Shown here: positions 655 to 59,133 of the stretch, in pieces
Numbering within the stretch: position 1 is the first letter of the stretch
Layout: each line of letters begins with the position of its first letter
Source of the DNA: Pseudoflavitalea sp. G-6-1-2
Lineage (GTDB): Bacteria; Bacteroidota; Bacteroidia; Chitinophagales; Chitinophagaceae
DNA length: 64,000 nt
NCBI RefSeq assembly: GCF_012927185.1
Contig: NZ_JABBGB010000001.1
Location: 992,001-1,056,000 of the forward strand
Reading direction: 5' to 3'
Made by a program: the position numbers and the translations under genes
Notes under the pieces: generated by a model
Told to the model about the DNA's origin: nothing
Databases searched by the model: none
What the model saw: the letters and a program-made list of their open reading frames with translations, nothing else

Positions 655-688
655 TTTGCCCCAATTCCGCAAAACAGTGATACATTTG
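655..688 (+). promoter_or_regulatory. Bacteroidota-type promoter of the TPP-riboswitch operon
   Basis: TTTG at 655-658 and TACATTTG at 681-688 match the -33/-7 consensus (TTTG and TAnnTTTG), spaced by 22 bases. Transcription would start near 695, a few bases before the first riboswitch helix at 701, as expected for a leader RNA. The start site is inferred. Confidence 0.65.
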
Positions 689-700
689 GTTATATAATTA

Positions 701-780
701 TTGCATCGGGGTGCTAATTCACTTTAGCTGAGATGATACCCGGGAACCTGATCTGGTTAAAACCAGCGGAGGGAATGCAA
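701..780 (+). promoter_or_regulatory. TPP (THI-box) riboswitch
   Basis: The conserved THI-box parts occur in order: closing helix TTGCAT (701-706) with ATGCAA (775-780), CGGGGTGC (707-714), GCTGAGA (727-733), ACCC (738-741), GAACCTGATCTGG (744-756) and ACCAGCGGAGGGAA. This matches the thiamine-pyrophosphate aptamer almost base for base. It precedes the operon starting at 908 and is followed by a terminator hairpin at 814-850, so control is probably by transcription termination. The downstream genes are not standard thi genes, which makes the presence of the switch informative. Confidence 0.95.
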
Positions 781-813
781 GGTGATAACTGATATAACAT
801 TTGTATTCAGCAT

Positions 814-850
814 AAGCCACATTTCTTCGAACAGGAAATGTGGCTTTTTT
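814..850 (+). terminator. Terminator hairpin of the TPP riboswitch
   Basis: AAGCCACATTT (814-824) pairs perfectly with AAATGTGGCTT (836-846), followed by a run of T to 850. It lies between the aptamer and the first start codon at 908, the right place for an expression platform. Bases 773-780 could pair with 801-808 when the closing aptamer helix is open, but that alternative stem does not overlap this hairpin, so the switching mechanism is not fully explained. Confidence 0.85.
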
Positions 851-907
851 TATGCCCATTCCGGTTCGATCCCATCCATTCCCCGTGCAGTATAAAACCA
901 ATTGTAT

Positions 908-1606
908 ATGGAACTGCAACAACTTACCCAGGGGATCAGAACCTGGCAGCAACGCCCCGAATGGTTCTTCAACAGAGAACATACAGACAGCTACGAACAA
1001 TGGTACGAAGGCCGTTACAAAAGGGCCGAAGTATGGCAGAAAAAAACCATTGGCGGCCTTCTTAAAAAAGATACGCGCATCAAAACCCTGCTCGAATTCG
1101 GATGCGGCACTACCCGCTTCACGCGCTGGTGGCACCAGATCGGCATTCACGCAACCGGAGCAGACCTCTCGCCTTTCATGCTGGGACAAGGCAGGCATCT
1201 CTTCGACGGAAACCTCGCCCTCGCCGATGCGCACTACATGCCTTTCAAAGACAAAACTTTCGATGCTCTCGCATTCATCACCACCTTTGAATATTATCGC
1301 GATCCCATTCAGGTGATCCGCGAAGCAAGAAGAGTGGCTAAGCACGGCATCGTATTCGGAATGATGAACCGCAACTCCCCCAAATTTATCCGCAGGCGCG
1401 TACAACAGGCTTTCGGAAAAAATCCATTCTATGTTACGGCCAATTTCTATACGCCTTCGAGCCTCATCAGCATCATCAACAAAGCGCTCGAAGGAGAGAA
1501 TTATTCCATCGAATGGACCTGCACCGGACTTCCAAAATGGTTTCCTGTGCAGCAATGGGGCGCTCCTTATGGCGATTTCTTCGCACTGTTTGTTCAATTC
1601 AAATAA
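908..1606 (+). CDS. Class I SAM-dependent methyltransferase in a TPP-regulated operon
   Basis: The 232-residue protein has a Rossmann-type methyltransferase core. Motif I is LLEFGCGTTRF (about 61-71), an acidic loop GADLS follows (84-88), then ADAHYMPF (106-113) and the motif IV region FDALAFITTFEYY (118-130). I chose ATG 908; a TTG two codons earlier is less likely. The N-terminal 55 residues are rich in W, R and K and may shape the substrate site. It is the first gene after the TPP riboswitch, and a Trm112-like protein is encoded three genes on. In eukaryotes and archaea Trm112 activates methyltransferases of this fold, so the two may form a complex (inference). Substrate unknown. Confidence 0.85.
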   Translation: MELQQLTQGIRTWQQRPEWFFNREHTDSYEQWYEGRYKRAEVWQKKTIGGLLKKDTRIKTLLEFGCGTTRFTRWWHQIGIHATGADLSPFMLGQGRHLFDGNLALADAHYMPFKDKTFDALAFITTFEYYRDPIQVIREARRVAKHGIVFGMMNRNSPKFIRRRVQQAFGKNPFYVTANFYTPSSLISIINKALEGENYSIEWTCTGLPKWFPVQQWGAPYGDFFALFVQFK

Positions 1607-1612
1607 TGCTCT

Positions 1613-2677
1613 ATGTCGAATTTTGCAGATAGTGGAAAGCTGCACATGGATCTCTTCAATCAATTGATCTATCCATATGCAGGTGCAGACAACAAGCAGC
1701 TGCTGGCTGGTCCTGAATATGGGGTGGATGTATCGCTGATCTCACTTCCCGGAGGACTGTCGATGGCTCTCACCAGCGACCCTCTCTCCTGGATACCCTC
1801 ACTCGGATTGCAGGAGTCAGCATGGCTTTCGGTACATCTGATGGCAAACGATATGGCCACTACATCGCAGGCGCCGCAGTTTGTTCAGCTGGTGCTCAAT
1901 CTTCCGGAAACCTGCACTGCCGCTGATTTTGAGCAGTACTGGATGCATATCCACCGATATTGCAAAGCAATCGGCGTTGCCATTTCGGGTGGACATACCG
2001 GCAAAGCCGCCGGACTCAATTCCACTATCGCCGGAGGCGGCACTATGGTGTGTACCGGTCCTTCGGAAAATTTCCTGCTCAGCAAATACGCCGAACCCGG
2101 AGACCTGATAATCGTTACCAAAGAAGCGGCGCAGATCGCCGCATCGGTGCTTGCGCTCAGCTTTCCTGAAACCGTAAAAAAACACTGTGGGCAGGATGTT
2201 TGGCAGACCGCCTCGGAACTGTTCTGGCAAACCAGCTCCTTACGGGAAGGCTTATGCGCTGCATCGCTGAATAAACATTCACTGCCAGTCGTCACTGCCA
2301 TGCACGATGTTACCGAAGGGGGTATACTCGGAGCCATTTACGAAATGGCCAGCGCTGCCGGATGCGGAGCCTATATTCAACAGGCCGCACTGCCTGTTGG
2401 AGAAGCGCAAAAGCTCGTCTGCAGTTTCTTTGAAATCGATCCGCTATGCTGCGTCGGCGCCGGCTCCATGATCATGGCCGTTAAACCGCAGAGCGAAGCC
2501 CTTGTTCTCAGCGAACTGCAGCAGCTTGGCATCAAGGCCACTACCGTAGGGCGATTCACGGGCAGAGGCGAAAGCATCCTGCTCGAATCGGAAAATGAAT
2601 TGCAGCAACTCAATCGTCCCGGCCCCGACCCATACTGGAATGCATTCTTTCAATCATTTAAAAATGGATGGAAATGA
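1613..2677 (+). CDS. HypE/PurM-like (AIR synthase-related) ATP-binding protein
   Basis: The 354-residue protein fits the PurM/HypE/SelD/ThiL superfamily, whose members use ATP to phosphorylate or dehydrate a substrate. Visible motifs are TSDPLSW (54-60), MANDMATT (77-84), ISGGHTG (124-130) and MHDVTEGGILGA (230-241). The last two resemble HypE more than ThiL, which has DLSDGL at this place. The HypE C-terminal cysteine tail (PRIC) is absent: this protein ends in SFKNGWK, so it is not a hydrogenase carbamoyl dehydratase. It starts six bases after the methyltransferase and its stop overlaps the next start in ATGA. An alternative start is ATG 1646. Substrate unknown; a phosphoryl-transfer or dehydration step is inferred from the fold. 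Confidence 0.8.
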   Translation: MSNFADSGKLHMDLFNQLIYPYAGADNKQLLAGPEYGVDVSLISLPGGLSMALTSDPLSWIPSLGLQESAWLSVHLMANDMATTSQAPQFVQLVLNLPETCTAADFEQYWMHIHRYCKAIGVAISGGHTGKAAGLNSTIAGGGTMVCTGPSENFLLSKYAEPGDLIIVTKEAAQIAASVLALSFPETVKKHCGQDVWQTASELFWQTSSLREGLCAASLNKHSLPVVTAMHDVTEGGILGAIYEMASAAGCGAYIQQAALPVGEAQKLVCSFFEIDPLCCVGAGSMIMAVKPQSEALVLSELQQLGIKATTVGRFTGRGESILLESENELQQLNRPGPDPYWNAFFQSFKNGWK

Positions 2678-3330
2678 GTACCACCAAAAAAGAAATCAAG
2701 GGAGGCGTTTATCTCGTGGTAGATCCGTCAGCGCTCAACGCCGCTGCTTTGGATAAGATCCGTGCAGCGCTCGATAGCGGACTCGCCGCCATTCAGGTGT
2801 GGAATAACTGGAAGGAGATCACTGCAAAAGCAGAACTGATTCAGCAGATCACTCAACTCACTGCCGGCTACAACACACCAGTACTGGTGAATGAGAATTA
2901 CTCACTGCTTACCGAAACCGATGCCGATGGTGTTCACTTCGACCGGCCTACTGAGAACCTGGCACTGATCCGCGCAGCCATCGACAGAGACTTCATCAGC
3001 GGAGTAACCTGTGGCAATGATCTGAACACGGTTCAGTATGCCATCGATTATCAGATGGATTACATTTCTTTCTGCTCCGTTTTCCCATCATCATCCGCCA
3101 ACAGCTGCGAGTGGGTACAACCCGCTACCATCGCGGCTGCCCGCGCCATCACCAATATGCCGGTCTTCGCCGCAGGCGGCATCACCGCCAGCAATCTTCC
3201 CGACATATTGCATACGGGTCTCGATGGCATCGCCGTGATCAACAGCATCATGAAAGCCGACGACCCCGCAAAAGTAACCGCACAATTCAATCAGATACTT
3301 CAACAAAAAGAACATAAAAATGCACCCTGA
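2674..3330 (+). CDS. ThiE/TenI-like TIM-barrel protein, degenerate active site
   Basis: The 218-residue protein follows the thiamine-phosphate synthase fold: DSGLAAIQVW (34-43), VLVNENY (70-76), ADGVHFDR (84-91), FCSVFPSSSAN (133-143), VFAAGGITASN (164-174) and GIAVINSI (185-192). Genuine ThiE has QLRxK at the first site and a TxTK loop after F; here these basic residues, which contact pyrophosphate, are replaced (QVWNNW, PSSSAN). Normal thiazole-pyrimidine coupling is therefore doubtful. I chose ATG 2674, which overlaps the upstream stop as ATGA; ATG 2668 is also possible. The downstream gene starts inside this gene's last codons. It could be a TenI-like isomerase, a binding protein or an enzyme on a related substrate. 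Confidence 0.8.
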   Translation: MSTTKKEIKGGVYLVVDPSALNAAALDKIRAALDSGLAAIQVWNNWKEITAKAELIQQITQLTAGYNTPVLVNENYSLLTETDADGVHFDRPTENLALIRAAIDRDFISGVTCGNDLNTVQYAIDYQMDYISFCSVFPSSSANSCEWVQPATIAAARAITNMPVFAAGGITASNLPDILHTGLDGIAVINSIMKADDPAKVTAQFNQILQQKEHKNAP

Positions 3331-3604
3331 TTTTCTGCAGCAACTCTGTTGCCCATTCGATAAAAAAGACCTTAGTCTGAAAATATTCGCAACAGATACT
3401 AACCACCATATCGTAGAAGGATTGCTCACCTGCGAGCACTGCAAACGTTACTATCCCATCATTCACGGAGTACCCATTATGAGTCCTGATGAATACAGGG
3501 AATGGAGCCTCGAAGCTCCTGTTGTAAAAAAATGGGAAGCAAAACTCGAAGGAAAGAAACTCGATCTCTTCAGACTCGAAGATGCTCCGGCTCAGGCCAA
3601 CTGA
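3320..3604 (+). CDS. Trm112-like zinc-binding protein
   Basis: A 94-residue protein of the Trm112/YcaR type. It has CCPFD (10-14) where the family usually has CPxC, then CEHC (38-41) and the conserved YPIIHGVPIM (45-54). About 30 charged residues follow the domain. Trm112 in eukaryotes and archaea is an obligate partner of several class I methyltransferases; the free-standing bacterial form is poorly understood. The gene overlaps the ThiE-like gene by 11 bases and ends the operon. A role as activator of the methyltransferase encoded at 908 is an inference from this linkage. Confidence 0.8.
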   Translation: MHPDFLQQLCCPFDKKDLSLKIFATDTNHHIVEGLLTCEHCKRYYPIIHGVPIMSPDEYREWSLEAPVVKKWEAKLEGKKLDLFRLEDAPAQAN

Positions 3605-3605
3605 T

Positions 3606-4517
3606 TCAGATAACAGAAGCTTTTGCCGGCAGCAGAAACTGCAGCATTTCCGGCACTAATTCAATAGATGCCGTCACCGGTGGTTTCTGCAATTTTTCCA
3701 ATGCGGAATCCAGATGCCATTGCGCACCCGCCCATTCAAGATGTATTCGCCTGCAGGATACAGAATGAAAGGGCGGGTGTGCATCTTCTCTATTCAATCT
3801 GTGCTGCAGATATTCCAGCAATTTGTTTCGCTCATCTTCCCTGATCCACACTGCATCGAAATGCCCGTCTCCGGGATCTGCCTGCGGTGCAAGTACCAGA
3901 TTGGGGCCGATGGTGCGTGTGTTCATGATTTCGAGCAGGAGATAATCTCCCGAATGATCTTCACCATCGAGTTCGAGTTTGCAGTACCGGCTTTTGGCAG
4001 TAGTTACAATGCTGTGAAGTGTCTGCAAAGCTGTTTGTAACGATTCGTCTGCGGATTGTTGTTTATCATCCAGCTTTTTCATTTCGATCAGCAGTTTAGG
4101 AAATAGTCCGAAGCCGGCGCCTTCGAGAAATATCGAATCCTGCTCTTTGTGATGAAAGAGACCAACATCGAATTTTTTGATCAGGCCGGGTTGCCAGGCT
4201 GCTACAATTTCTTCCGGGTCTCCCGTAATGCCAAGTGCGGATGCGATATTATTGGCCGTTCCGGCAGGCAGCAATGCCAGTGGTATTTTCTGATGAAGTT
4301 TCTGATGGATCAATGCATCAATCACTTTACCCACGGTGCCGTCTCCTCCCACCACCACAATGAGGTCGGCATCGGCATCGAGCTTTTCCCATCCATCCTT
4401 TTTTGTTGAAAAATATCTACAGTCGTACCCTTGCGATTGCATCAACTGAAGCAGACCCTGCTTGCTGTGCTCCTGATCTCCTGCACCGGGATTATGAATT
4501 ATCAAAGCTGTTTGCAT
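3606..4517 (-). CDS. Diacylglycerol/lipid kinase family protein
   Basis: The 303-residue protein has the DAGK catalytic domain: NPGAG (9-13), the nucleotide loop VVGGDGTV (55-62) and PAGTANN (84-90), which is PxGTxN in the family. Members (DgkB, YegS, sphingosine kinase) phosphorylate lipid hydroxyls with ATP at the membrane. Chitinophagaceae make sphingolipids, so a long-chain base is as possible as diacylglycerol. The C-terminal half forms the usual beta-sandwich. The gene converges on the Trm112 gene with one base between them and is divergent from surE. Confidence 0.85.
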   Translation of the reverse strand: MQTALIIHNPGAGDQEHSKQGLLQLMQSQGYDCRYFSTKKDGWEKLDADADLIVVVGGDGTVGKVIDALIHQKLHQKIPLALLPAGTANNIASALGITGDPEEIVAAWQPGLIKKFDVGLFHHKEQDSIFLEGAGFGLFPKLLIEMKKLDDKQQSADESLQTALQTLHSIVTTAKSRYCKLELDGEDHSGDYLLLEIMNTRTIGPNLVLAPQADPGDGHFDAVWIREDERNKLLEYLQHRLNREDAHPPFHSVSCRRIHLEWAGAQWHLDSALEKLQKPPVTASIELVPEMLQFLLPAKASVI

Positions 4518-58740: not shown

Positions 58741-58911
58741 GGTGATTGCTTTTAAAATGATTGAATCAATTAAAAGCCCTTTGCTAAACCAGCAATGCCA
58801 GTAAAAAGAGGAGGATGAAATGTGCGCACGGAATTGCTCCCTGCCTGAGGAGTGGCCGGAGATGTGCATATCAGATCAACAACTGCTTCTTTCCACGAAA
58901 GCATTGTCAAA

Positions 58912-59088
58912 TACAGTAAAGGCAGGTCTCCTGGCTTGTAACATTCTTACCGTCCTTCCCATCCCCACAAGTTTTGTGAGGGACAGTGGACAACAAGGGT
59001 AAGAATTGAGGTGGTTACTTACAGTTGCGGGACAGCTTGTGATTTGCACACAATTCCCTATTAATCCCGGTGCTACCGGGAACCTATG
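58912..59088 (-). promoter_or_regulatory. Cobalamin riboswitch upstream of metE
   Basis: Read on the minus strand, the region contains GGTTCCCGGTAGCACCGGGA (59084-59065), the AAGCTGTCCCGCAACTGTAAG core (about 59040-59019) and the B12 box GCCAGGAGACCTGCC (58935-58921). These match the cobalamin aptamer. Expression platform not resolved; no terminator T-run was found before metE, so translational control is possible. The metE start lies about 175 bases downstream. Confidence 0.93.
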
Positions 59089-59133
59089 CTGTTTGATAGA
59101 TATAGAAAAGAACTTGAGTGCAAGTTAGGGGAA

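Follow-up and report, generated by a model that had tools for sequence, protein, structure and literature searches.

In Bacteroides, the operons described under the control of thiamine pyrophosphate (TPP) riboswitches are thiSEGCHF-tenI, OMthi and pnuT-tnr3 in the passages of the source used here (PMC5613172). The excerpted text of a 2017 review of Trm112 states that the known partners of this protein act on translation components, calls the function of bacterial Trm112 unknown and already notes Trm112-methyltransferase fusions in some bacteria (PMC5372719). Herein we analyzed a stretch of 64,000 nucleotides from Pseudoflavitalea sp. G-6-1-2 (the window; C1:992001-1056000 of a 6.1-Mb genome that is 99.95% complete), in which positions 655-3604 hold a TPP riboswitch followed by four tightly packed genes (the cassette), encoding a class I S-adenosylmethionine (SAM) methyltransferase, a HypE/SelD-like ATPase, a ThiE-fold barrel and a Trm112-like protein. 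TPP riboswitch control and a protein of the ThiE/TenI fold are common to the cassette and the Bacteroides operons but, compared with the operons as those passages give them (PMC5613172), the cassette has no ThiS, ThiG, ThiC, ThiH, ThiF or transporter and has the methyltransferase, the ATPase and the Trm112-like protein instead. The cassette is a patchy, transferable, self-contained conserved unit, and its chemistry is probably new, within TPP-controlled thiamine metabolism. An earlier note on this DNA, made from the sequence alone, had held that the operon is not a known thiamine pathway and that its composition is undescribed, both of which are supported; within the portion of the open-licence PubMed Central literature covered, no description of the four-gene set was found, a result that does not show its absence from print. 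The features of the locus are as follows.

655-688, forward strand: presumed Bacteroidota-type promoter (TTTG at 655-658; -7 box TACATTTG at 681-688)
697-791, forward strand: TPP riboswitch aptamer (THI element; Rfam RF00059)
814-851, forward strand: intrinsic terminator (hairpin 814-846, U-run 845-851; fold -18.5 kcal/mol)
908-1606, forward strand: class I SAM methyltransferase (Methyltransf_11, 1.9e-16)
1613-2677, forward strand: PurM/HypE/SelD/ThiL-superfamily ATPase (AIRS/AIRS_C; AIRS_C, 1.4e-20)
2668-3330, forward strand, alternative start 2674: ThiE/TenI-fold TIM barrel with altered active site (TMP-TENI, 7.4e-33)
3320-3604, forward strand: Trm112-like zinc-ribbon protein (Trm112p, 6e-9)

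Leader and gene organization

The promoter, THI-box aptamer and terminator that the earlier note had placed before four packed genes were confirmed, as were the four families it had named (SAM methyltransferase, HypE/PurM-like ATPase, ThiE-like barrel and Trm112-like protein), all of which gave profile matches. Using RF00059 for the leaders rather than a dedicated leader covariance model, the aptamer scored 70.1 bits (gathering cut-off 54.3, E 9.8e-12, window 697-791, forward strand). We take the TAnnTTTG -7 box together with TTTG to be a Bacteroidota-type promoter, based on the consensus for this group; in 42 of 77 leaders (the window and 76 loci) TAnnTTTG precedes CTGAGA by 20-75 bases, compared with occurrence in 41 of 1580 random 55-mers. 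The leader as a whole (695-855) is predicted to fold at -48.8 kcal/mol (z -4.0), none of 200 shuffles being equally stable, and the terminator hairpin is also present in the minimum free energy structure of this whole leader. A loose hairpin-plus-T-run filter for terminators was passed by 57 of the 77 leaders, many with strong hairpins and some with weak ones. The ATGA overlap of genes 2 and 3 (2674-2677) and the 11-base overlap of genes 3 and 4 are as claimed in the earlier note, with 2668 as another possible start of gene 3. Next after the cassette lies a convergent, diacylglycerol-kinase-like gene (3606-4517, reverse strand; family search), and a cobalamin riboswitch is found elsewhere in the window (58904-59102, reverse strand, 112 bits).

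Conservation, distribution and transfer

Relatives of the cassette were sought in named genomes using the ATPase as query; the scan was restricted to two peptide patterns, and of 81 loci the best 80 were kept. All four genes occur in the same order in 79 of these 80 loci (one of them, L091, frameshifted), the remaining locus being a Nostoc contig (L094) that ends inside the ATPase. In L094 the start of the ATPase, a close homologue, lies 10 bases after an open reading frame (ORF) that appears choloylglycine-hydrolase-like by eye. A THI box was found upstream by pattern in 77 of the 80 loci; in each of the 51 genomes searched, Rfam scored a TPP switch over the cut-off ahead of the cassette (contigs and positions compared by hand), and it did the same for 12 of 12 further loci, two of them complete loci without a pattern match. 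Every one of the 79 complete loci has a THI box, shown by Rfam for 62 and by the pattern for the remaining 17. The co-occurrence of the four families with THI boxes that the earlier note had suggested looking for is borne out by these counts, and the outcome set beforehand as speaking against a thiamine link, namely the four genes without a TPP riboswitch in most relatives, was the opposite of what was found.

Protein alignments, conservation counts and the tree were based on the window plus 78 loci (79 rows), leaving out the frameshifted Niabella locus (L091) and the cut Nostoc locus (L094), whilst alignments A2-A4 comprised the window and 35 of the 78 loci. In unbroken loci, identity to the window is 69-79% for the methyltransferase, the most conserved of the cassette proteins, 47-58% for the ATPase, 42-64% for the Trm112-like protein and 33-49% for the barrel. 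The distance matrices of the four proteins correlate with r of 0.73-0.83 (at most 0.15 when shuffled), and a tree of three joined proteins, built by a quick method with SH-aLRT (approximate likelihood ratio test) support only, places Paraflavitalea beside the window (97), with Runella joining them next (99), and makes a pair of Pedobacter chinensis and Ferruginibacter paludis (97), across family boundaries. Since the gene distance matrices agree and the operon tree crosses families, the cassette moves as a unit. Among 295 genomes of the class, a single-sequence search (E <= 1e-10) gave close matches in the own genome and one Runella only, with two more distant matches at 27-38%; two of 295 genomes against 80 loci in the two-pattern scan indicates a patchy distribution. 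Carriage by phages was rejected, as one tblastn scan of viral contigs with two peptide patterns found no relative. Comparison of neighbour families across 78 loci found none besides the cassette genes that recurs in more than 7 of the 78, and a functional clue from neighbouring genes was therefore dropped.

The ThiE-fold barrel

The AlphaFold2 model of the barrel (pLDDT 93.7) has ThiE (2tps) as its best fold match, with a TM-score of about 0.85, and TenI (1yad) as a weaker one. Against the curated ThiE model TIGR00693 the barrel scores 115.6 bits, below the cut-off of 145.1; however, several hosts have second ThiE-family proteins that likewise score below this cut-off, and the score alone is for that reason weak evidence. 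Residue columns of the barrel were taken from an alignment to B. subtilis ThiE, with 3o16 (named K159A) anchoring the K159 column. We take R59, K61, D93, D112 and K159 of ThiE to serve in pyrophosphate and Mg binding. In the barrel, the place of R59 holds Trp in 77 of 79 rows and never Arg, Lys occurs at the places of K61 and K159 in none of the 79, and Asp occurs at the place of D93 in one row and at that of D112 in none. Kept in common with ThiE (2tps, 3o16), besides the fold, is the GGI phosphate loop, whose Gly-Gly is present in 79 of 79 rows, as are Gln at the Q57 place and His90. In contrast to ThiE, the cassette barrel has an invariant Cys136 and Cys147 (79 rows) and Asp92 in 78 of 79. 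A role of the barrel as thiamine phosphate synthase is unlikely, because the pyrophosphate/Mg residues of ThiE are lost and, in most carriers, no supply of hydroxymethylpyrimidine pyrophosphate (HMP-PP) by the known route was seen, as described next.

Thiamine genes and other TPP-switched loci of the carriers

Thiamine genes were searched in the own genome and the genomes of 50 of the 80 loci (51 in total), with L094 in place of L095 in the ThiD search, which hence covered 50 cassette genomes among 51. The earlier note had pointed out that the operon holds no ThiC or ThiD. This proved correct, and the own genome likewise gave no match to ThiC or to thiamine pyrophosphokinase (TPK), in a search that did not include ThiG, ThiM, TenA, ThiK and ThiN; its ThiD match was a 20.8-bit tail match and the cassette barrel was its only ThiE-family match. 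Using one ThiD profile, we found a full-length ThiD in four of the 50 cassette genomes (139-168 bits), a piece in one more, and at most tail matches below 58 bits in the other 45, whilst 14 of 14 control genomes were matched by this profile, 12 of them over the cut-off. HMP-PP is therefore not expected by the known route in most carriers. By hand count, 13 of the 51 genomes encode a further ThiE-family protein scoring 100 bits or more. TPK was found in 12 of 51 genomes and not matched by its one profile in the other 39, including the own one, so that a gap at thiamine kinase is possible. In Pedobacter namyangjuensis (G325:C12:712227-712832), a fragment of ThiD lies together with a ThiE fragment interrupted by an in-frame stop, perhaps as a decaying thi operon.

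TPP matches elsewhere in the cassette genomes were examined in part, in 40 stretches (39 chosen for a TPP match, and L108 for its second ThiE-family gene). In the own genome such matches lie before a TonB receptor (68.7 bits) and before a PnuT-type transporter (46.7 bits, below the Rfam cut-off), and TonB receptors are also held by the stretches of other cassette genomes. In 19 of the 32 genomes with stretches fetched, PnuT is directly followed by an HsaA/HpaB-like flavoprotein of the acyl-CoA-dehydrogenase fold (L097:3998-5706 on C3 of the own genome; L100, L101, L104, L118-L125, L127, L129, L130 and L133-L136); the TPP match at this unit is often below the Rfam cut-off. On visual inspection, Ferruginibacter and Mangrovivirga stretches contain full thi operons. 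Several further arrangements were seen. In L107:1665-3455 and L137:2770-4427, a TPP-switched TonB receptor is followed by DUF6687 and a protein of about 200 amino acids beginning MSSHH, for which no convincing Pfam family was found, and in L103 a DUF6687 relative likewise follows a TonB receptor. The same L103 (18249-19369, Marivirga) has PnuT and then a NadR-like kinase near a TPP switch, possibly a thiamine kinase. A 208-amino-acid protein beside the TonB receptor of L107, TPK-like by eye, was rejected as a divergent TPK, with a chance-level, photolyase-related match only in Pfam (to E 0.5) and none in NCBIfam. The own genome also has a TPP-like match of 53.1 bits, just below the cut-off (C2:1712625-1712727, L003), upstream of an ORF that is DUF892/YciE-like by eye.

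The ATPase and its relation to ThiL

AIRS and AIRS_C domains and the GGHTG and HDVTEGG motifs are common to the cassette ATPase and to ThiL, HypE and SelD of the PurM superfamily, and HypE (2i6r) is the best solved structure for the ATPase family profile (1.1e-16). The ATPase nevertheless falls below the curated cut-offs for ThiL (66.8 bits versus 184.15, TIGR01379) and HypE (64.8 bits versus 251.6, TIGR02124), and a separate true ThiL coexists with it in its hosts, at C1:879371 in the own genome (311.6 bits) and in all 51 cassette genomes searched; for these reasons the ATPase is unlikely to be the thiamine monophosphate (ThMP) kinase of the cell. In a control, ThiL was over the cut-off in 188 of 198 genomes of the class and ThiE was matched (E <= 1e-10) in 80 of 198, and we thus rejected the argument that ThiL kept without ThiE means that the cassette supplies ThMP. 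The best relatives of the ATPase in the plasmid collection, ahead of HypE, are annotated as haloarchaeal 'AIR synthase family protein' (near full-length, 2e-43; the top three 27.6-29.5% identical over 97%). Similar as they are by sequence, these lack the other three cassette genes in the four plasmid loci examined (incomplete gene tables). A thiamine link by way of this archaeal relative was set aside as weak, since it comes from two syntenic Haloarcula loci.

The methyltransferase and the Trm112-like protein

The SAM-binding motif I of the methyltransferase (EFGCGT) is invariant in 36 of 36 rows of alignment A4. Its predicted structure is near Hvo_0019 of the Trm112 complex 6f5z (Foldseek ranks 6-7), among many other class I enzymes, and its N-terminal region, modelled with low confidence yet highly conserved, may be a partner interface. 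The closest solved chains to the Trm112-like protein are 6zxw_H and 6f5z_C; 6f5z is titled as a Haloferax Trm112 complex, and we take 6zxw to be an archaeal Trm112 structure as well. The short archaeal signature [C/D]PX[C/D]X19-36CX2C, as given in the excerpted review (PMC5372719), is fitted by the Trm112-like protein of the window (C11-P-F-D14-X23-C38-X2-C41). The whole signature is found in 74 of 79 rows, the other five having S or L at Pro12, and the metal-ligand positions C11, D14, C38 and C41 are kept in 79 of 79. The two proteins are co-inherited (distance-matrix r 0.80) and, from sequence and models, look like a probable holoenzyme pair. This pair has the metal-ligand pattern and the Hvo_0019-like fold in common with archaeal Trm112 and its bound methyltransferases (6f5z, 6zxw) but, unlike those systems, is bacterial and sits inside a TPP-controlled metabolic operon. 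No RNA-binding domain was found among the Pfam matches of the cassette proteins.

Proposed function and alternatives

Since the cassette is TPP-switched, recurrent and fits no known vitamin B1 pathway, it probably carries out an undescribed rescue or repair step on a thiamine-like compound. More specifically, we tentatively favour a TPP-repressed mobile cassette that salvages or repairs a thiamine-type compound, or its phosphate, that the usual enzymes cannot use. When TPP is low the operon would be read through and the cassette expressed, and when TPP is high the aptamer would shut the operon via the terminator, most likely by transcription attenuation. The methyltransferase and the Trm112-like protein would act as one SAM-dependent enzyme, and the HypE/SelD/ThiL-like ATPase would activate or phosphorylate the substrate with ATP. 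The barrel appears to keep the thiazole-phosphate end of the ThiE pocket and to have its pyrophosphate/Mg site replaced by a conserved Trp/Asp/Cys constellation; with such a site in place, it would use a ready-joined or altered molecule resembling thiamine phosphate rather than join HMP-PP and thiazole phosphate. It may then complete conversion to thiamine or thiamine phosphate, from which ThiL would make TPP, and the product of the cassette would most likely raise the supply of thiamine or thiamine phosphate. The suggestion in the earlier note that the operon synthesizes, salvages or alters a compound related to thiamine, or works through a methylated intermediate, agrees with the TPP control, with the fold of the barrel and with the missing supply of HMP-PP, the substrate being inferred as before.

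Several observations weigh against such a salvage or repair function. No single cassette gene proves thiamine chemistry; the Trm112 link is equally compatible with methylation of a macromolecule, and confidence in the methyltransferase model is modest (pLDDT 77). In the predicted leader fold the terminator and an anti-P1 hairpin coexist, so that coupling of TPP to the terminator is not visible there, and 20 of the 77 leaders failed the loose terminator filter. The Nostoc locus (L094:5328-6328) has an ATPase start without a methyltransferase upstream. The four full-length ThiD matches are below the curated cut-off of 204.95, and the absences of ThiD and TPK come from one profile each, with divergent or unrelated kinases possible. 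Retention of ThiL in the cassette genomes is no evidence, because ThiL is near-universal in the class (188 of 198), and the thiamine neighbourhood of the haloarchaeal ATPase relative was seen in the two syntenic Haloarcula plasmids only and not in the Halobacterium or Haloferax plasmid examined. A competing reading that also counts against it, and which we consider improbable, is that the cassette makes no thiamine and instead provides, when TPP is scarce, a TPP-independent bypass around a TPP-dependent enzyme, for which MetE under cobalamin riboswitches offers a parallel. The OFF-switch logic would suit a bypass, as would the absence of canonical synthesis genes from most hosts examined, but no cassette protein has a family match to known substitutes of transketolase, pyruvate or oxoglutarate dehydrogenase, acetohydroxyacid synthase (AHAS) or deoxyxylulose-phosphate synthase (DXS), the ThiE fold suggests a thiamine-like ligand, and the four hosts with a full-length ThiD carry the cassette too.

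The possible kinase gap in the TPK-less genomes (39 of 51, all with ThiL) keeps alive the idea that the ATPase is a thiamine kinase, converting thiamine to ThMP and feeding the separate ThiL in place of the missing TPK, with the other three genes as accessories. The TPP-switched TonB and PnuT uptake loci of the cassette genomes and the membership of the ATPase in the ThiL superfamily agree with this, but we regard it as unlikely: 12 of the 51 genomes have TPK as well, ThiL is near-universal in a class where the cassette is rare, and the barrel and the stronger conservation of the methyltransferase than of the ATPase are left unexplained. A new route to a thiamine moiety, or synthesis of a thiamine analogue or antivitamin, is slightly less likely still in our judgement. 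PurM-type ATPases close heterocycles and SAM could supply a methyl group, chemistry that would suit such a product together with the TPP feedback and the ThiE/TenI fold of the barrel. However, a full-length ThiD was not found in 45 of 50 hosts, nor a further ThiE-family protein scoring 100 bits or more in 38 of 51, such that a separate moiety would not be usable by the known route in most of them, and with every neighbour family limited to 7 of 78 loci or fewer, there is no resistance or export gene that regularly accompanies the cassette. Modification of tRNA, rRNA or protein by the Trm112-methyltransferase pair according to thiamine status, with the other two genes preparing a cofactor or the modification, is of similarly low probability to a bypass; it would be in keeping with the translation-related partners of Trm112 in the excerpted review (PMC5372719) and with the Hvo_0019-like model, but the Pfam matches include no RNA-binding domain and the pair is strictly co-inherited with a ThiE-fold protein and a TPP switch. 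Ordinary thiamine-phosphate synthesis, by a ThiE and a ThMP kinase accompanied by passenger genes, matches the TMP-TENI and AIRS families and the TPP switch, yet is very improbable given the loss of the ThiE pyrophosphate/Mg residues over 79 rows, the barrel score (115.6 of 145.1 bits), the hosts in which no full-length ThiD was found (45 of 50) and the true ThiL in 51 of 51.

A broader version of the salvage function, which we hold to be doubtful, would join the cassette to the TPP-switched uptake proteins and the TPP-switched flavoprotein monooxygenase beside PnuT in one unrecognised O2-, SAM- and ATP-dependent route from an environmental thiamine derivative to thiamine phosphate, in bacteria without ThiC, ThiD and ThiE. 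If this joint route is true, it would contain, to our knowledge, the first Trm112-methyltransferase holoenzyme with a role in metabolism, as well as the first ThiE barrel turned into a cysteine-based enzyme. A salvage route as such, if true, would account for the survival of some auxotrophs on compounds that are not classed as vitamin B1. With the cassette, bacterial Trm112 gains a strictly co-inherited methyltransferase partner that is open to immediate testing, and the textbook picture of vitamin B1 metabolism probably lacks a part, in bacteria most of which show no complete known route to the vitamin.

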